Shown: piece after piece, positions 5,327 through 49,146 of the stretch
How positions within the stretch are numbered: position 1 is the first letter of the stretch
Layout: each line of letters begins with the position of its first letter
DNA from: a virus
Direction: 5' to 3' (one strand)
IMG/VR virus record: IMGVR_UViG_3300046514_000576
Coordinates: 1-53,694 of that record
Length of the DNA: 53,694 nucleotides
Notes under the pieces: model-generated
Database searches by the model: none
Seen by the model: only the letters and a program-made list of their open reading frames with translations
What the model was told of the DNA's origin: nothing
Translations under genes and position numbers: made by a program

Positions 5327-5694
5327 CCGCAGCGCGCACCGTCGCCGAGCTGTTCGAATGCCTCGACGTCGAAGACGTCATGCGACTGCGCAAGTGTTCG
5401 CGCTCGAAAGCGTACGCACACATGCGCGCGGCGCTGGGCCGGGCCCCAGGCGAACGCGGTGAACTTCGCGTGTCGGTTCCAACGTGGCAGCGGTACATTG
5501 TCAATCTCGAGGAGCGTCGATGCCGCACGTCTTCAAACGCGGGTCCATCTATCACGGGTGGTTCTACGAGGACGGCGCGCGCGTCCAACGATCCACGCAC
5601 TGCACCGACAAGCGCGCCGCAGAGGCCGTCGTTGCTCGTTGGGAACGAGTTGCCGCGGATCCCGATTCCGGAGCCTCGGACGAAGCGACGATGA
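5323..5694 (+). CDS. xis: Putative excisionase / HTH DNA-binding protein
   Basis: The start GTG 5323 overlaps the preceding TGA. Residues 10-60 look like an Xis-type or MerR-like helix-turn-helix (LDVEDVMRLRKCSRSKAY, then a basic wing ending VPTWQRYIVNLEER). The frame stays open to 5694, so its last 57 codons overlap the start of the integrase gene (5520) in another frame. That tail is low-complexity, rich in Arg, Ser and Pro, and resembles read-through rather than a domain. Position immediately upstream of int supports a recombination-directionality role; the family assignment is by position and HTH pattern. Confidence 0.55.
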   Translation: MTAARTVAELFECLDVEDVMRLRKCSRSKAYAHMRAALGRAPGERGELRVSVPTWQRYIVNLEERRCRTSSNAGPSITGGSTRTARASNDPRTAPTSAPQRPSLLVGNELPRIPIPEPRTKRR

Positions 5695-6776
5695 GGGACG
5701 CGATCGCGCAGCTGATCACCGATCGGTCCACGCGCGCGGGCAACGGCGAGCGCAGCGAGCAGACGGTTGAGTTCTATCGGCGCAAGAGCGGCTATCTCGT
5801 GCGGCATTTCGGCGCCGAGTTTCGCATCGCGCGCCTCTCCGCACCCGAGGTCGACGCGTACGTTGCGTCACGTCGTACAGAAGGCGCGGCGGAGCACACG
5901 ATCGCGAAGGAGCTGACGACGCTCCGCGCTGCGCTGAAGCTCTGTCTGCGTGCGCAGCTCTGGCGCGGTTCGCTCGACGCGATCATGCCGGTGCGGTTCT
6001 CGCCGGCGTACCGTCCGCGCGAACGAAAGCTCACCGAGGCCGAGGTCGACGACCTGCTGCGCGAACTCGAACCCGACCGCGCGGCCCGCGTCGCGTACAT
6101 CGTTGGGACGGGCGCGCGGCTCGGTGAGTCCGACCGAGCGCAGCGGGGTGACGTCGTCGAGGCGCGCGACGGAACATGGTTCGCGTATCTGCGCGGGACG
6201 AAGACGGCCGCGAGTCGACGGACCGTCCCGATCATGCTGGCTGCGTGTCGACGATTCCTCGAGTTCTCGATCGCAGCGGGGGAGGGGAAGGACGGCGCGC
6301 TCTTCACCGGATGGGCGAATCCGGTGCGTGATCTTCATACCGCATGCGTCCGCGCGGAGATCGATCCGTGCTCACCGAATGACCTGCGCCGAACGTTCGG
6401 CACCTGGCACCGCGAGGCCGGGATCGCTCCACACGACGTCGGTGCGATCCTCGGGCACACGAGCGGCGCGATGGTCGAGAAGGTGTACGGTCGTCTCGGG
6501 CCCGAGGCGCTGGCGCTTCGTGTCGCGACGCAACTTGCTGTCGCACCGGTGCAGCAGACTCCGCGACATTCGGTGGACTCGGTGGACGGCGTGGACTCAA
6601 CGGAGCGGGATTTACCGGGGGATTCGTGCCGGCGGTCGGAATCGAACCGACGACCTTGGGATTATGATTCCCGAGCGCGACGACCCGTAACGTGCCACGC
6701 GCACAGGCGAAAGCGCGATGGCACCGCGGAGACTGTAGCGCCGGTGCAGCAGCGCGCGCGGCGGGGTGGACGATGA
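5520..6776 (+). CDS. int: Tyrosine site-specific integrase with attP inside its 3' end
   Basis: The start ATG 5520 gives the usual phage integrase N-terminus (MPHVFKRGSIYHGWFYEDG) and has GGAG about 9 bases upstream; 418 residues. It has a core-binding region (about 60-160) and a catalytic domain with box I Arg (GTGARLGE), the beta-hairpin Lys (RGTKTAASRR), box II NDLRRTF, ILGHTSG and the nucleophile in MVEKVYG (about Tyr323). The first box II position is Asn instead of His, which I believe also occurs in some other phage integrases. Codons about 370-385 read through the antisense of a tRNA-Met 3' half (6627-6673), so strand exchange would replace the last 30-odd codons with host sequence. 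The stop overlaps the next start (ATGA at 6773). Confidence 0.9.
   Translation: MPHVFKRGSIYHGWFYEDGARVQRSTHCTDKRAAEAVVARWERVAADPDSGASDEATMRDAIAQLITDRSTRAGNGERSEQTVEFYRRKSGYLVRHFGAEFRIARLSAPEVDAYVASRRTEGAAEHTIAKELTTLRAALKLCLRAQLWRGSLDAIMPVRFSPAYRPRERKLTEAEVDDLLRELEPDRAARVAYIVGTGARLGESDRAQRGDVVEARDGTWFAYLRGTKTAASRRTVPIMLAACRRFLEFSIAAGEGKDGALFTGWANPVRDLHTACVRAEIDPCSPNDLRRTFGTWHREAGIAPHDVGAILGHTSGAMVEKVYGRLGPEALALRVATQLAVAPVQQTPRHSVDSVDGVDSTERDLPGDSCRRSESNRRPWDYDSRARRPVTCHAHRRKRDGTAETVAPVQQRARRGGR
6627..6673 (-). other. attP: attP core: 3' half of tRNA-Met(CAU)
   Basis: Read on the minus strand this is the 3' part of a tRNA. The anticodon arm has loop ATCATAA (anticodon CAT), followed by variable loop AGGTC, T arm GTCGG-TTCGATT-CCGAC, acceptor strand CGCCGGC and discriminator A. 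No matching 5' acceptor (GCCGGCG) or D arm lies upstream, and the first anticodon-stem pair is a C-A mismatch, which marks the end of identity. Phages that integrate in tRNA genes carry such a 3' half to rebuild the gene. A 12-base direct repeat CCGGTGCAGCAG lies about 70 bases to each side (6546-6557 and 6741-6752), and three GTGGAC repeats lie at 6573-6598; these could be arm-type sites. If the window is integrated DNA this would be attL or attR instead. Confidence 0.8.
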
Positions 6777-43219: not shown

Positions 43220-43621
43220 TCAGCCCGTCTGGCGTGTCGCGAACAGCACCCGATGCACCGGGCAACCGTCGTCGACGAGCACCTTGCGCCGACCGTCGAC
43301 CACGCACGCGGCGCACGAGCATCCGCCGGCGCGGGCTTCGTCCGTGTCGAAGGCTGGCGGTAACGGCGACCGGCGTTCTCGGGCCGTGAAGCTCGAGTAG
43401 CTTTCGGCATCGACCAAGTACGACCATCGGCGGTCCGTCCACGCGAGTTTCGCACGGCGCACGCGGGGGAGCGTGGGATCGGCGAGTTGCCGCGCGAACC
43501 ATCCGCCCACGCGCCGTTGGATTTGGCGCAGCGGATCCGACGTCGCAGCGGCAATATCCTCGCACGTCAACTCACGCCGGATGACCCGCGGCGGCATGGG
43601 GAGGATCGCCGCGCAGGTCAT
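43220..43621 (-). CDS. Hypothetical protein with Cys cluster, first gene of late operon
   Basis: The start is uncertain: ATG 43621 is chosen, with GTG 43657 and ATG 43597 as alternatives, none with a clear ribosome site. The product, about 133 residues, has helices (REELTCEDIAAATS-like), a basic region (QIQRRVGGWFARQLA) and a Cys/His group (GGCSCAACV, DDGCPVH) that could bind zinc. As the first gene of the late operon it may be a packaging or regulatory factor. Confidence 0.55.
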   Translation of the reverse strand: MTCAAILPMPPRVIRRELTCEDIAAATSDPLRQIQRRVGGWFARQLADPTLPRVRRAKLAWTDRRWSYLVDAESYSSFTARERRSPLPPAFDTDEARAGGCSCAACVVDGRRKVLVDDGCPVHRVLFATRQTG

Positions 43622-43694
43622 GGGTTCGAGGTGTGTTGCCGCGCTCCGTGGTGACACGTGTGGCTGCGGCTTGCCGACACTTTGCGCCGTTAGG

Positions 43695-43734: not shown

Positions 43735-43766
43735 AACGGCCCGGAGACCGAAGCCTCCGAGCCGTT
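43735..43766 (-). terminator. Intrinsic terminator ending the right-hand leftward unit
   Basis: AACGGC-c-CGGAG (43735-43746) pairs with CTCCG-a-GCCGTT (43755-43766), loop of 8, one mismatch. On the minus strand it is followed by TTTCGTTGTG. It would stop transcripts that cross the pentamer arrays before they reach the terminase genes. Confidence 0.75.
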
Positions 43767-43770
43767 CCAC

Positions 43771-43915
43771 CTTGCCTTGCCCGGCCGTGCCGCGCCGGAC
43801 CTGGCCTAATCTCGCCCGACCCAGCCAATCCGATCCGAGCCACGCCCATCCTGACCATGCCGTGCCCGATCACGCCTCGCCCGACCTAGCCGTTCCTCGG
43901 CGCGCCGCACCAGTC
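43771..43915 (-). repeat. Pentamer array 1 (29 units)
   Basis: From 43771 every fifth base is C in all 29 units (for example CTTGC, CCGGC, CGTGC, CGCGC, CGGAC), and the base before it is C in 26 of 29. The three other bases vary freely. On the minus strand the pattern is GGNNN. The period of 5 is not compatible with coding. Confidence 0.85.
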
Positions 43916-43917
43916 GC

Positions 43918-43984
43918 GGACGCCGCGAGAATCGAACTCGCGTTCAGACCACCGCGCCCATCGATCGCGCCGAAACGCGATCCC
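43918..43984 (-). ncRNA. tRNA-like double hairpin between arrays 1 and 2
   Basis: On the minus strand a 7-base stem GATCGCG / CGCGATC with a 6-base loop TTTCGG (43963-43982) is followed by a perfect T-arm-like hairpin CGCGAG-TTCGATT-CTCGCG (43924-43942). No acceptor or D arm can be built around them, so it is not a complete tRNA. A degenerate tRNA or a tRNA mimic are both possible. It interrupts the pentamer phase. Confidence 0.5.
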
Positions 43985-44143
43985 CTACCCGACCACACCA
44001 TTACCTGCCCGGCCATCGCGTGCCGCGCCACACCATTGCTCGACGAGCCCATCCCGGCCGCGCCTCTCCTTGCCCGGTCCTGCCTTGCCCTGCCGCTCCG
44101 CACCGAACCACACCCTGGCGCGCCGAACCACACCCGGCCACCA
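43984..44143 (-). repeat. Pentamer array 2 (32 units)
   Basis: C occupies the first position in all 32 units from 43984 to 44143 (for example CCTAC, CCGAC, CACAC, CTCTC, CTTGC, CGCAC). The preceding base is mostly C. Phase differs from array 1 by three positions; the array ends at hairpin X. Confidence 0.85.
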
Positions 44144-44147
44144 TGGT

Positions 44148-44178
44148 GCTCGCGGTTTGAAGTCATCGCACCGCGAGC
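44148..44178 (-). ncRNA. Hairpin X between arrays 2 and 3
   Basis: GCTCGCGGT (44148-44156) pairs perfectly with ACCGCGAGC (44170-44178); loop TTGAAGTCATCGC (plus-strand reading). Aligned without gaps to hairpin Y 117 bases away, three base pairs change on both sides (compensatory) while most of the loop and the flank CCCTTGCC are kept. Confidence 0.75.
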
Positions 44179-44255
44179 CCTTGCCATGCCGTACCCGACC
44201 TAACCCCGCCGCGCCGCGCCTGACCAAACCAGACCGGACCGGACCGGACCCCGCC
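44176..44255 (-). repeat. Pentamer array 3 (16 perfect units)
   Basis: All 16 units from 44176 to 44255 end in CC (NNNCC; for example TTGCC, ATGCC, GTACC, CGACC, TAACC, GGACC three times). This is the purest array. Confidence 0.85.
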
Positions 44256-44264
44256 GCATTGAGC

Positions 44265-44295
44265 GCCCACGAGTTGAAACCATCGCATCGTGGGC
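44265..44295 (-). ncRNA. Hairpin Y between arrays 3 and 4
   Basis: GCCCACGA (44265-44272) pairs with TCGTGGGC (44288-44295); loop GTTGAAACCATCGCA. Same length and fold as hairpin X. Ten of 40 aligned positions differ, six of them as three compensated pairs. Confidence 0.75.
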
Positions 44296-44301
44296 CCTTG
44301 C

Positions 44302-44386
44302 CCTATCCTGCCGCACCGCGCCTTGCCCTGGCGCGCCTTGCCGGAACAAGCCACTGCCAACCCCGCCTGACCAATCCCCGCCCGAA
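44302..44386 (-). repeat. Pentamer array 4 (17 units)
   Basis: All 17 units from 44302 begin with C (for example CCTAT, CCTGC, CGCAC, CGCGC, CTTGC, CAAGC). It ends at the 3' end of the gene at 44390. Confidence 0.8.
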
Positions 44387-44389
44387 TCC

Positions 44390-45022
44390 CTACGCCGCTC
44401 GACTCAGTTCGAGCCGCTGAAACTTCGCGACGCTGAATCGCCCGAACGTCGGGCGGAAGTCGCCGACGCCGACGAGACGCCCCGCGTTTGTGAGCACGTC
44501 GCTCAAGTCGGCTTCCGCGATGTACTCGGGCGTGAGCACTTGAAGCTGAATCACGACGCTCCATCCCGCACGCATCGCCGGGCGCTCGCGCGTGACTGCG
44601 TTGCGCTGAATCACGACGCGACGACGATCGAGGTAGCCCCACTCTTTCGTTCCGAGGCTCGCGAGATCCGTGATCGCGACGACGCCAGCCTTGTACAGAT
44701 CAAACGCGCTCTTGCGTGGCGAGCGTGGATCCTGACGGAACTTCGCCGCCGTGAGAATCGACTGCCGCAGATATTCGCCGGGGATCGCGAGTTCGCCGTC
44801 GTCGTTGCGATAGACGTAGCTCTCGACGTTGTCGCTCTTCTTTGCCTTCGAGTTCTTCGCGGCTTTCGACTTCTCGGCGACCGCGTCGCACGACCATCGG
44901 TGAAACAGGAACGGCGCCACGCCGGTGATCTTCACTTCGACCACATACGGGATGCCGACTTCGATGTCCGGCGCAGCGTCGTTGCTGACGTTGTTGACCG
45001 GTTCAACCTTGCCCTTTGCCAT
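44390..45022 (-). CDS. Conserved phage protein, first gene of the array-bearing unit
   Basis: ATG 45022 has ACGGAG about 8 bases upstream; an in-frame GTG at 45052 is less likely. The 210-residue product opens IPYVVEVKITGVAPFLFHRW, has a Lys-rich insert, then LAIPGEYLRQSILTAAKFRQ, an Arg-rich middle and ends GRLVGVGDFRPTFGRFSVAK. I associate this order with a widespread phage family of unknown function. The Gly-rich GVGDFRPTFGRF end recalls RAMP/Cas7-type RNA-binding folds, but that is a resemblance seen by eye. The gene runs directly into the pentamer arrays, with a putative promoter and operator upstream. Confidence 0.65.
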   Translation of the reverse strand: MAKGKVEPVNNVSNDAAPDIEVGIPYVVEVKITGVAPFLFHRWSCDAVAEKSKAAKNSKAKKSDNVESYVYRNDDGELAIPGEYLRQSILTAAKFRQDPRSPRKSAFDLYKAGVVAITDLASLGTKEWGYLDRRRVVIQRNAVTRERPAMRAGWSVVIQLQVLTPEYIAEADLSDVLTNAGRLVGVGDFRPTFGRFSVAKFQRLELSRAA

Positions 45023-45049: not shown

Positions 45050-45106
45050 CACTCACCCGCCCACGGCGTCGAGTACGAGTCGATGGTGCGCGCGAGCGGG
45101 TGAGTG
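45050..45106. promoter_or_regulatory. Inverted repeat in leader of the array-bearing unit
   Basis: CACTCACCCGC (45050-45060) and GCGGGTGAGTG (45096-45106) form an 11-base perfect inverted repeat with a 35-base loop, upstream of the ATG at 45022. A leader stem or regulator site. Confidence 0.55.
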
Positions 45107-48046: not shown

Positions 48047-49146
48047 TGTCCACCTCCCGCGGGTCGGTTGTGTTTCGCTCGCCAGTCGCTCGCGATCGCG
48101 CCGAGGGCGGCAGTCGGCAAAACCGGCTGCGCCGGCGTCTTGATCGGCGCGGGCCCCTTCGGTTGCGTGCGCACGGGCGGCATTCGGGGCGGCAGCCCCT
48201 TCGCCTTGCGCCGCAGCGCACACTTGCTCGCGATCTGCAGCGCGGCATCGAGTCCGCCGGCCGAGTAGTTCCCGCGATCGTCAGGGCGACCGAGCATCGC
48301 TTGGAGCGAGAGCTGGCCGCGGTACTCGCGCTCGAGATCGCCCGTCAGCACCATGTCGGCCAGGACCCCAAAATCCTCGAGCGTGCAGTTCTGTCGTTCG
48401 AGCTGCGCGAGCACGCCCGCGAACCCGTCCTCGGCGGTTCCGATCAGCCGCGTGTTGATCTTGCCGCCCGACCGACGCTTCACGATCGCCTGGACGTCCG
48501 GAAGCGAAAGAACCGAAAGACCGTCCGTCCGTCCGTCCGTCCCTCCGGGGTTTGGGGTCGTCACGGTCGGGGCCGTCACGCTGGCGGGTTGCGGCGTCAC
48601 TACCCCGTGACGGCCTTGCGTCACGTCGGGGCCGTCACGGGGCGTCACGGCGAGGCCGTCACGCGCGCGCTCCGGAAGGGACGGACGGACGGATGGAATC
48701 TCTAGCTTCTTGTCTGAATTCACCGGAGAAAAGGCATCAGAAGATTCCGGCGCGCGCGCGAGTGTCGTCACGGGGCCGTCACGAAAGGCCGTCACGAGGC
48801 CGTCACGGGGCGTCACGGCGAGGCCGTCACGAGGTAGTGACGGGGCCGTCACGCTGGCGGGTTGCGGCGTCACGGTGCGTGACGGCCTTTCTGTCGTCCG
48901 CGTGACGCCGGCAGTGCCCTTCGACCGACTCGGACGACGCTTCCGGATCTCCGCAGCATGAGCCTCGCGGTACCGCCTCGCCCGTTCGGCTGGCGTGAGG
49001 GCACGACTCGACGCTTGGTCATCGTCGGGAGGGGGTGCGTCGTCGTCCGGCGGCGGCCCCTCGGTCGCGAGAAAGCGCGCGAGCCGTTCGTCGCTCAACC
49101 GGAAGAGCAGCGCGGAAGCATCTCGAAGTAGGTCCTCGCGATTCAC
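48043..49146 (-). CDS. Putative replication-type protein with repeat-rich middle
   Basis: The start GTG 49146 overlaps the RNase H stop; 367 residues. The N-terminal 40 residues are helical and acidic, residues about 45-80 basic (AERARRYREAHAAEIRKRRP). Residues 80-205 form a low-complexity stretch with repeated Arg-Asp-Gly and Val-Thr-Pro units encoded by the CGTCAC cluster. The C-terminal domain (about 205-330) is helical (LPDVQAIVKRRSGGKINTRL, EDFGVLADMVLTGDLEREYR). An initiator with its origin inside, as in lambda O, is the model; no family was recognised. Confidence 0.5.
   Translation of the reverse strand: MNREDLLRDASALLFRLSDERLARFLATEGPPPDDDAPPPDDDQASSRALTPAERARRYREAHAAEIRKRRPSRSKGTAGVTRTTERPSRTVTPQPASVTAPSLPRDGLAVTPRDGLVTAFRDGPVTTLARAPESSDAFSPVNSDKKLEIPSVRPSLPERARDGLAVTPRDGPDVTQGRHGVVTPQPASVTAPTVTTPNPGGTDGRTDGLSVLSLPDVQAIVKRRSGGKINTRLIGTAEDGFAGVLAQLERQNCTLEDFGVLADMVLTGDLEREYRGQLSLQAMLGRPDDRGNYSAGGLDAALQIASKCALRRKAKGLPPRMPPVRTQPKGPAPIKTPAQPVLPTAALGAIASDWRAKHNRPAGGGQ
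48521..48908. other. Candidate replication origin: CGTCAC/GTGACG repeat cluster
   Basis: About 20 copies of CGTCAC (or GTGACG) lie within about 390 bases. Two longer blocks each occur twice. A (GTCC)n run at 48521-48544 and a (GGAC)n run at 48678-48692 form a long inverted repeat. Synonymous choice alone would not produce this. Such clusters recall iteron origins, but no AT-rich unwinding element stands out. Confidence 0.5.

Follow-up and report, generated by a model that had tools for sequence, protein, structure and literature searches.

Viral Interference Programmable Repeat (VIPR) systems, presented in a bioRxiv 2026 preprint, are used by phages to repress competing phages (PMC13142463). 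As the preprint describes them, they combine Vipr, a RAMP homolog of about 20 kDa, with vrRNAs of 9-16 YNNGG repeats that end in an invariable, structured 3' tail; double-stranded DNA is recognised through the NN dinucleotides, one target base being left out at each repeat (PMC13142463). An accessory gene, vap, is given there as typical of VIPR, though not universal, and some VIPR types have staggered arrays (PMC13142463). The characterised example is the type II VIPR of Escherichia phage SUSP1 (PMC13142463; PDB 36pp). VIPR represents a newly described RNA-guided DNA-recognition code, which is thought to be older than CRISPR.

The DNA analysed here, the window, is a virus record of 53,694 bases. 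A sequence-only reading had noticed a stretch of phased pentamers in the raw sequence by the repeat pattern alone and knew of no described phage element like it; VIPR was reported in 2026 (PMC13142463). Since its protein, repeat grammar, position and orientation, and in part also its hairpin tails, agree with the published systems, the region 43735-45022 is very probably a VIPR locus, consisting of vipr and downstream vrRNA arrays that would be coated by Vipr and direct repression through their NN dinucleotides.

Phased pentamers directly downstream of a Vipr gene

The five-base period is real. Between positions 43771 and 44386, identity at lag 5 amounts to 0.475 in comparison to 0.27 for the whole window, identity at lags 10, 15 and 20 ranges from 0.43 to 0.45, and the windows of highest lag-5 identity in the entire 53.7 kb all fall inside this region. 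Scoring of phased CC segments returned four of them, at 43770-43911 (29 units, score 44.6), 43983-44139 (32 units, score 40.9), 44179-44255 (16 units, score 29.8) and 44296-44382 (18 units, score 21.0), all far above 12.1, the highest score obtained when the 2 kb around them were shuffled 200 times. The sequence-only reading had counted four arrays; its coordinates and unit counts agree with ours, whereas the number of blocks rises to five, as its 32-unit block is itself cut by a hairpin. It had also recognised the GG phase on the minus strand, in the form GGNNN, and had overlooked the pyrimidine that follows GG. On that strand, about 88 phased YNNGG (GGY-NN) pentamers occupy 43767-44382. GG is present in 77 of the 88 units and lacking in 11, C or T stands directly after GG in 77/88, and the remaining two positions, NN, are nearly uniform in base use across the 88 units. 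In the window we found pentamer arrays only and no CRISPR repeat-spacer array, there were no cas genes among the neighbouring genes tested, and searches for tRNAs, hammerheads and other known RNA families gave no hits.

A gap of 7 bp separates the start of the array from the stop codon of the gene upstream on the same (minus) strand, vipr (44390..45022), in keeping with published VIPR arrays, which adjoin vipr in a long intergenic region. The open reading frame is readable from a GTG at 45052, but translation more probably starts at the ATG at 45022, which yields a RAMP-family Vipr protein of 210 amino acids. A profile of the family matched the PDB entry 36pp, 'SUSP1 Vipr protein', with E=4.5e-42, and the window protein as a single sequence matched it with E=3.7e-10. 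The protein corresponds to phrog_4652 (PHROG 4652, function unknown), and no Pfam family was found for it. It is intact and retains every invariant residue of the family. An AlphaFold2 model of the protein (pLDDT 92.8) had its best Foldseek matches among CRISPR RAMPs, namely type VII Cas7, Csm3 and Cas7-11, with E about 1e-6 and TM about 0.5. With these class 1 proteins Vipr shares, besides the predicted fold, the binding of RNA by repeated small subunits that leave some positions non-paired. The identity in the fold alignments is about 11-16% however, VIPR pairing is noncontiguous and recurs every 5 nt of the guide, and the window, in contrast to class 1 CRISPR-Cas loci, contains neither CRISPR repeats nor a Cas operon.

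Among phages, the window protein is approximately 28% identical to felixounavirus Vipr and 62% identical to Vipr of phage DSL-LC04 (OR003939). Both DSL-LC04 and the felixounavirus VpaE1 carry GGNNN arrays, which in DSL-LC04 lie on the gene strand as in the window; the arrays detected in DSL-LC04 are located upstream of vipr, however, and its other neighbouring genes differ. The annotation of the DSL-LC04 protein (L251:5001-5618) as a helix-turn-helix transcriptional regulator is likely wrong. The SUSP1 locus likewise is phage-encoded and has a Vipr homolog, GGY/NN repeat RNAs beside vipr on the same strand, and several vrRNAs with structured 3' tails. It differs from the window, where the arrays all lie directly 3' of vipr and beside packaging genes, and where no vap was recognised. 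The latter statement rests on comparison with other VIPR loci and on Pfam, PHROGs and NCBIfam, as the neighbours tested had neither a homolog in other VIPR loci nor a useful family match.

Guide blocks and hairpin tails

Hairpins divide the array into blocks of 17, 15, 18, 10 and 28 units, which we term vrRNAs a to e in the order of their putative transcription on the minus strand. Block a (44293..44382) comprises 17 GGYNN units and a GGGCC that opens its 3' tail, a hairpin at 44256..44292 with the loop TGCGATGGTTTCAAC (MFE -17.7 kcal/mol, z -2.2). Block b (44176..44255) has 15 GGYNN units followed by GGGCT, and its tail at 44140..44175 folds into a hairpin with the loop TGCGATGACTTCAAA (MFE -22.7 kcal/mol, z -4.5). 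The loop TGCGATGRYTTCAA is common to both tails. Their stems diverge by changes that compensate each other, GCCCACGA/TCGTGGGC versus GCTCGCGG/CCGCGAGC, so that a functional RNA structure is well supported. This motif was not found in any other VIPR locus compared, and the tail sequence of the window is unlike that of the felixounaviruses.

The other blocks end in hairpins unlike tails a and b. Block c (44045..44139; 18 GGYNN units) closes with the short hairpin GCTC-GTC-GAGC at 44038-44048, and block d (43980..44034) contains 10 GGYNN units plus GGGAT; the boundaries of both are placed by inference. The tail region of block d (43912..43979) combines a hairpin GATCGCG...CGCGATC with a second stem that includes a T-arm-like sequence, although the folding of these two stems is not better than that of shuffled sequences (z -0.7). 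Block e (43767..43911) is made up of 28 GGYNN units and GGTGG, as against the published range of 9-16 repeats, and by analogy with staggered arrays may hold two overlapping guides. It is followed by a strong hairpin and a T-rich stretch (43735..43766; MFE -30.6 kcal/mol, z -6.5), a probable intrinsic terminator closing the array transcript. Within tail d, the minus-strand sequence GCGAGTTCGATTCTCGC at 43925-43941 resembles a tRNA T-arm; ARAGORN and Rfam reported no tRNA there, and the element could be the remnant of an attachment site, with an integrase encoded at 5484-6776.

Linkage of array and gene across viruses and the one-base-skip rule

The sequence-only reading had also proposed looking for NNNCC arrays elsewhere. 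Scanning virus contigs with the pattern (CCNNN)11CC revealed at least 120 stretches and, among the matches listed, nearly all were highly diverse arrays in which a purine precedes the next CC (G 67%, A 23%), i.e., YNNGG when read on the opposite strand. A comparable scan of cellular genomes mostly retrieved simple pentamer microsatellites, so that the diverse form is mainly a feature of viruses. Clustering of the open reading frames around the arrays brought up one family of approximately 200 amino acids in 53 loci, and profile searches identified Vipr homologs in 56 of 108 virus loci picked by the array pattern only, many of them on fragments. Arrays commonly start no more than 10 bp from the stop codon of the Vipr-family gene, which occupies the GG strand. 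In the converse test, for which a single Vipr protein served as query, all 11 virus loci found by the protein alone had GGNNN arrays on the gene strand. Among environmental viruses, the array pattern is predictive of the Vipr protein, and vice versa. Locus L004 represents the textbook form, with five blocks of 13-17 repeats, most of them followed by a near-identical tail.

To test the recognition code, targets were sought for the 396 arrays contained in 1.1 Mb of virus sequence at spacings of 0-3 skipped bases, a match being counted as strong if it reached 21/24 or more across 12 dinucleotides. Skips of 0, 1, 2 and 3 bases gave 2, 13, 3 and 0 strong matches, respectively, the 13 one-base-skip matches not all being independent, and reversed-order controls yielded at most one match at the 21/24 level. 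The best one-base-skip matches lie inside coding genes of other phages. In six related phages, a guide of locus L248 matches a gene situated directly upstream of vipr, reaching 25/30 along the whole guide in the four phages written out. In four other loci, a guide of L247 (L247:3698-3812) matches a phage helicase at its Walker A region, and a guide of L118 matches an HNH-like gene in L022. In all three cases the skipped base coincides with the wobble position of the codon. These data constitute an independent, small-scale reproduction of the one-base-skip rule on phages outside the worked examples of the original study. A readable code of this kind allows rivals of uncultivated phages to be predicted from sequence; here, the predictions point to helicase and HNH-endonuclease genes in other phages.

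For the guides of the window itself, six exact eight-dinucleotide probes returned 5-25 matches each in the viral collection, a search in which imperfect targets would be missed. There were few of them, and extending them along the guide gave no more than chance agreement; those for guide a lay in unrelated genes. The matches were therefore judged to be chance, and no target was found for any guide of the window. Nor was a convincing self-target present within the window.

Proposed mechanism, alternative explanations and neighbouring genes

By analogy with SUSP1, vipr would be expressed from the minus strand as a small RAMP protein, and the array downstream would be transcribed in the same direction and processed into about five vrRNAs of GGY-NN repeats, most with a 3' hairpin tail. 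Vipr subunits would assemble along the GGY-NN tract and coat it, the NN dinucleotides would pair with double-stranded DNA, leaving out one target base at each repeat, and once bound, the complex would repress transcription of competing phages or mobile elements, the presumed targets of this virus. Of the three roles suggested by the sequence-only reading, one, in which a protein covering 5 bases at a time coats a repetitive RNA, was essentially right, as the repeats match the vrRNAs bound by Vipr. Whether the locus represents a distinct variant of VIPR is more doubtful; we put forward only tentatively a type with vipr but without an accessory gene, a cassette of about five guides downstream, a fixed tail loop on covarying stems, a 28-unit or overlapping guide, and a position beside packaging rather than early genes.

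That the locus is degenerate or silent, with vipr and arrays inherited and guides that lack targets or an array in decay, seems unlikely to us. The 11 units without GG would fit such decay, as would the exact-probe result for the guides and the lack of a recognised vap. Imperfect units are scattered in related loci too, however, vipr is intact down to its invariant residues, the stems of the tails carry compensatory changes, and retention of GG and the pyrimidine next to near-random NN positions requires selection. That TerS recognises the array as a packaging (pac) site, or as another kind of phased protein-binding DNA, has a very small probability. A small HTH-like gene and TerL do lie at a distance of about 0.5 kb, but in related loci the array follows vipr while the flanking genes differ, and its strand orientation, together with the hairpin tails, indicates an RNA. 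We also know of no pac site with a GGY-NN grammar, which counts against this reading. The packaging role advanced by the sequence-only reading thus found no support, as across virus loci the array tracks vipr and not the terminase; its suggestions of a replication or partition locus and its analogy with nucleosome-excluding DNA fared no better. The assembly error it had allowed for is unlikely, since many independent virus contigs share this architecture. Least probable of all is a pentanucleotide microsatellite such as GC-rich cellular genomes commonly contain. Bacterial genomes do frequently carry simple CCNNR pentamer repeats, yet there they are mostly near-identical, whereas here GGY is fixed and the two N positions are near uniform; unit diversity and linkage to vipr refute a simple microsatellite.

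In addition to the VIPR locus, three features of the window were recorded. The gene at 43220-43657, directly after the arrays, appears by eye to encode a winged-helix-like small DNA-binding protein; it had no family match and is possibly an accessory protein or the terminase small subunit. At 48500-48890, about a dozen motifs of the CGTCACG/CGTGACG type occur in both orientations together with (CCGT)n runs; they are iteron-like and possibly mark a replication-origin region. The very end of the contig (53569-53691) carries approximately 20 copies of a hexamer, GACCCC and later GACCRC.
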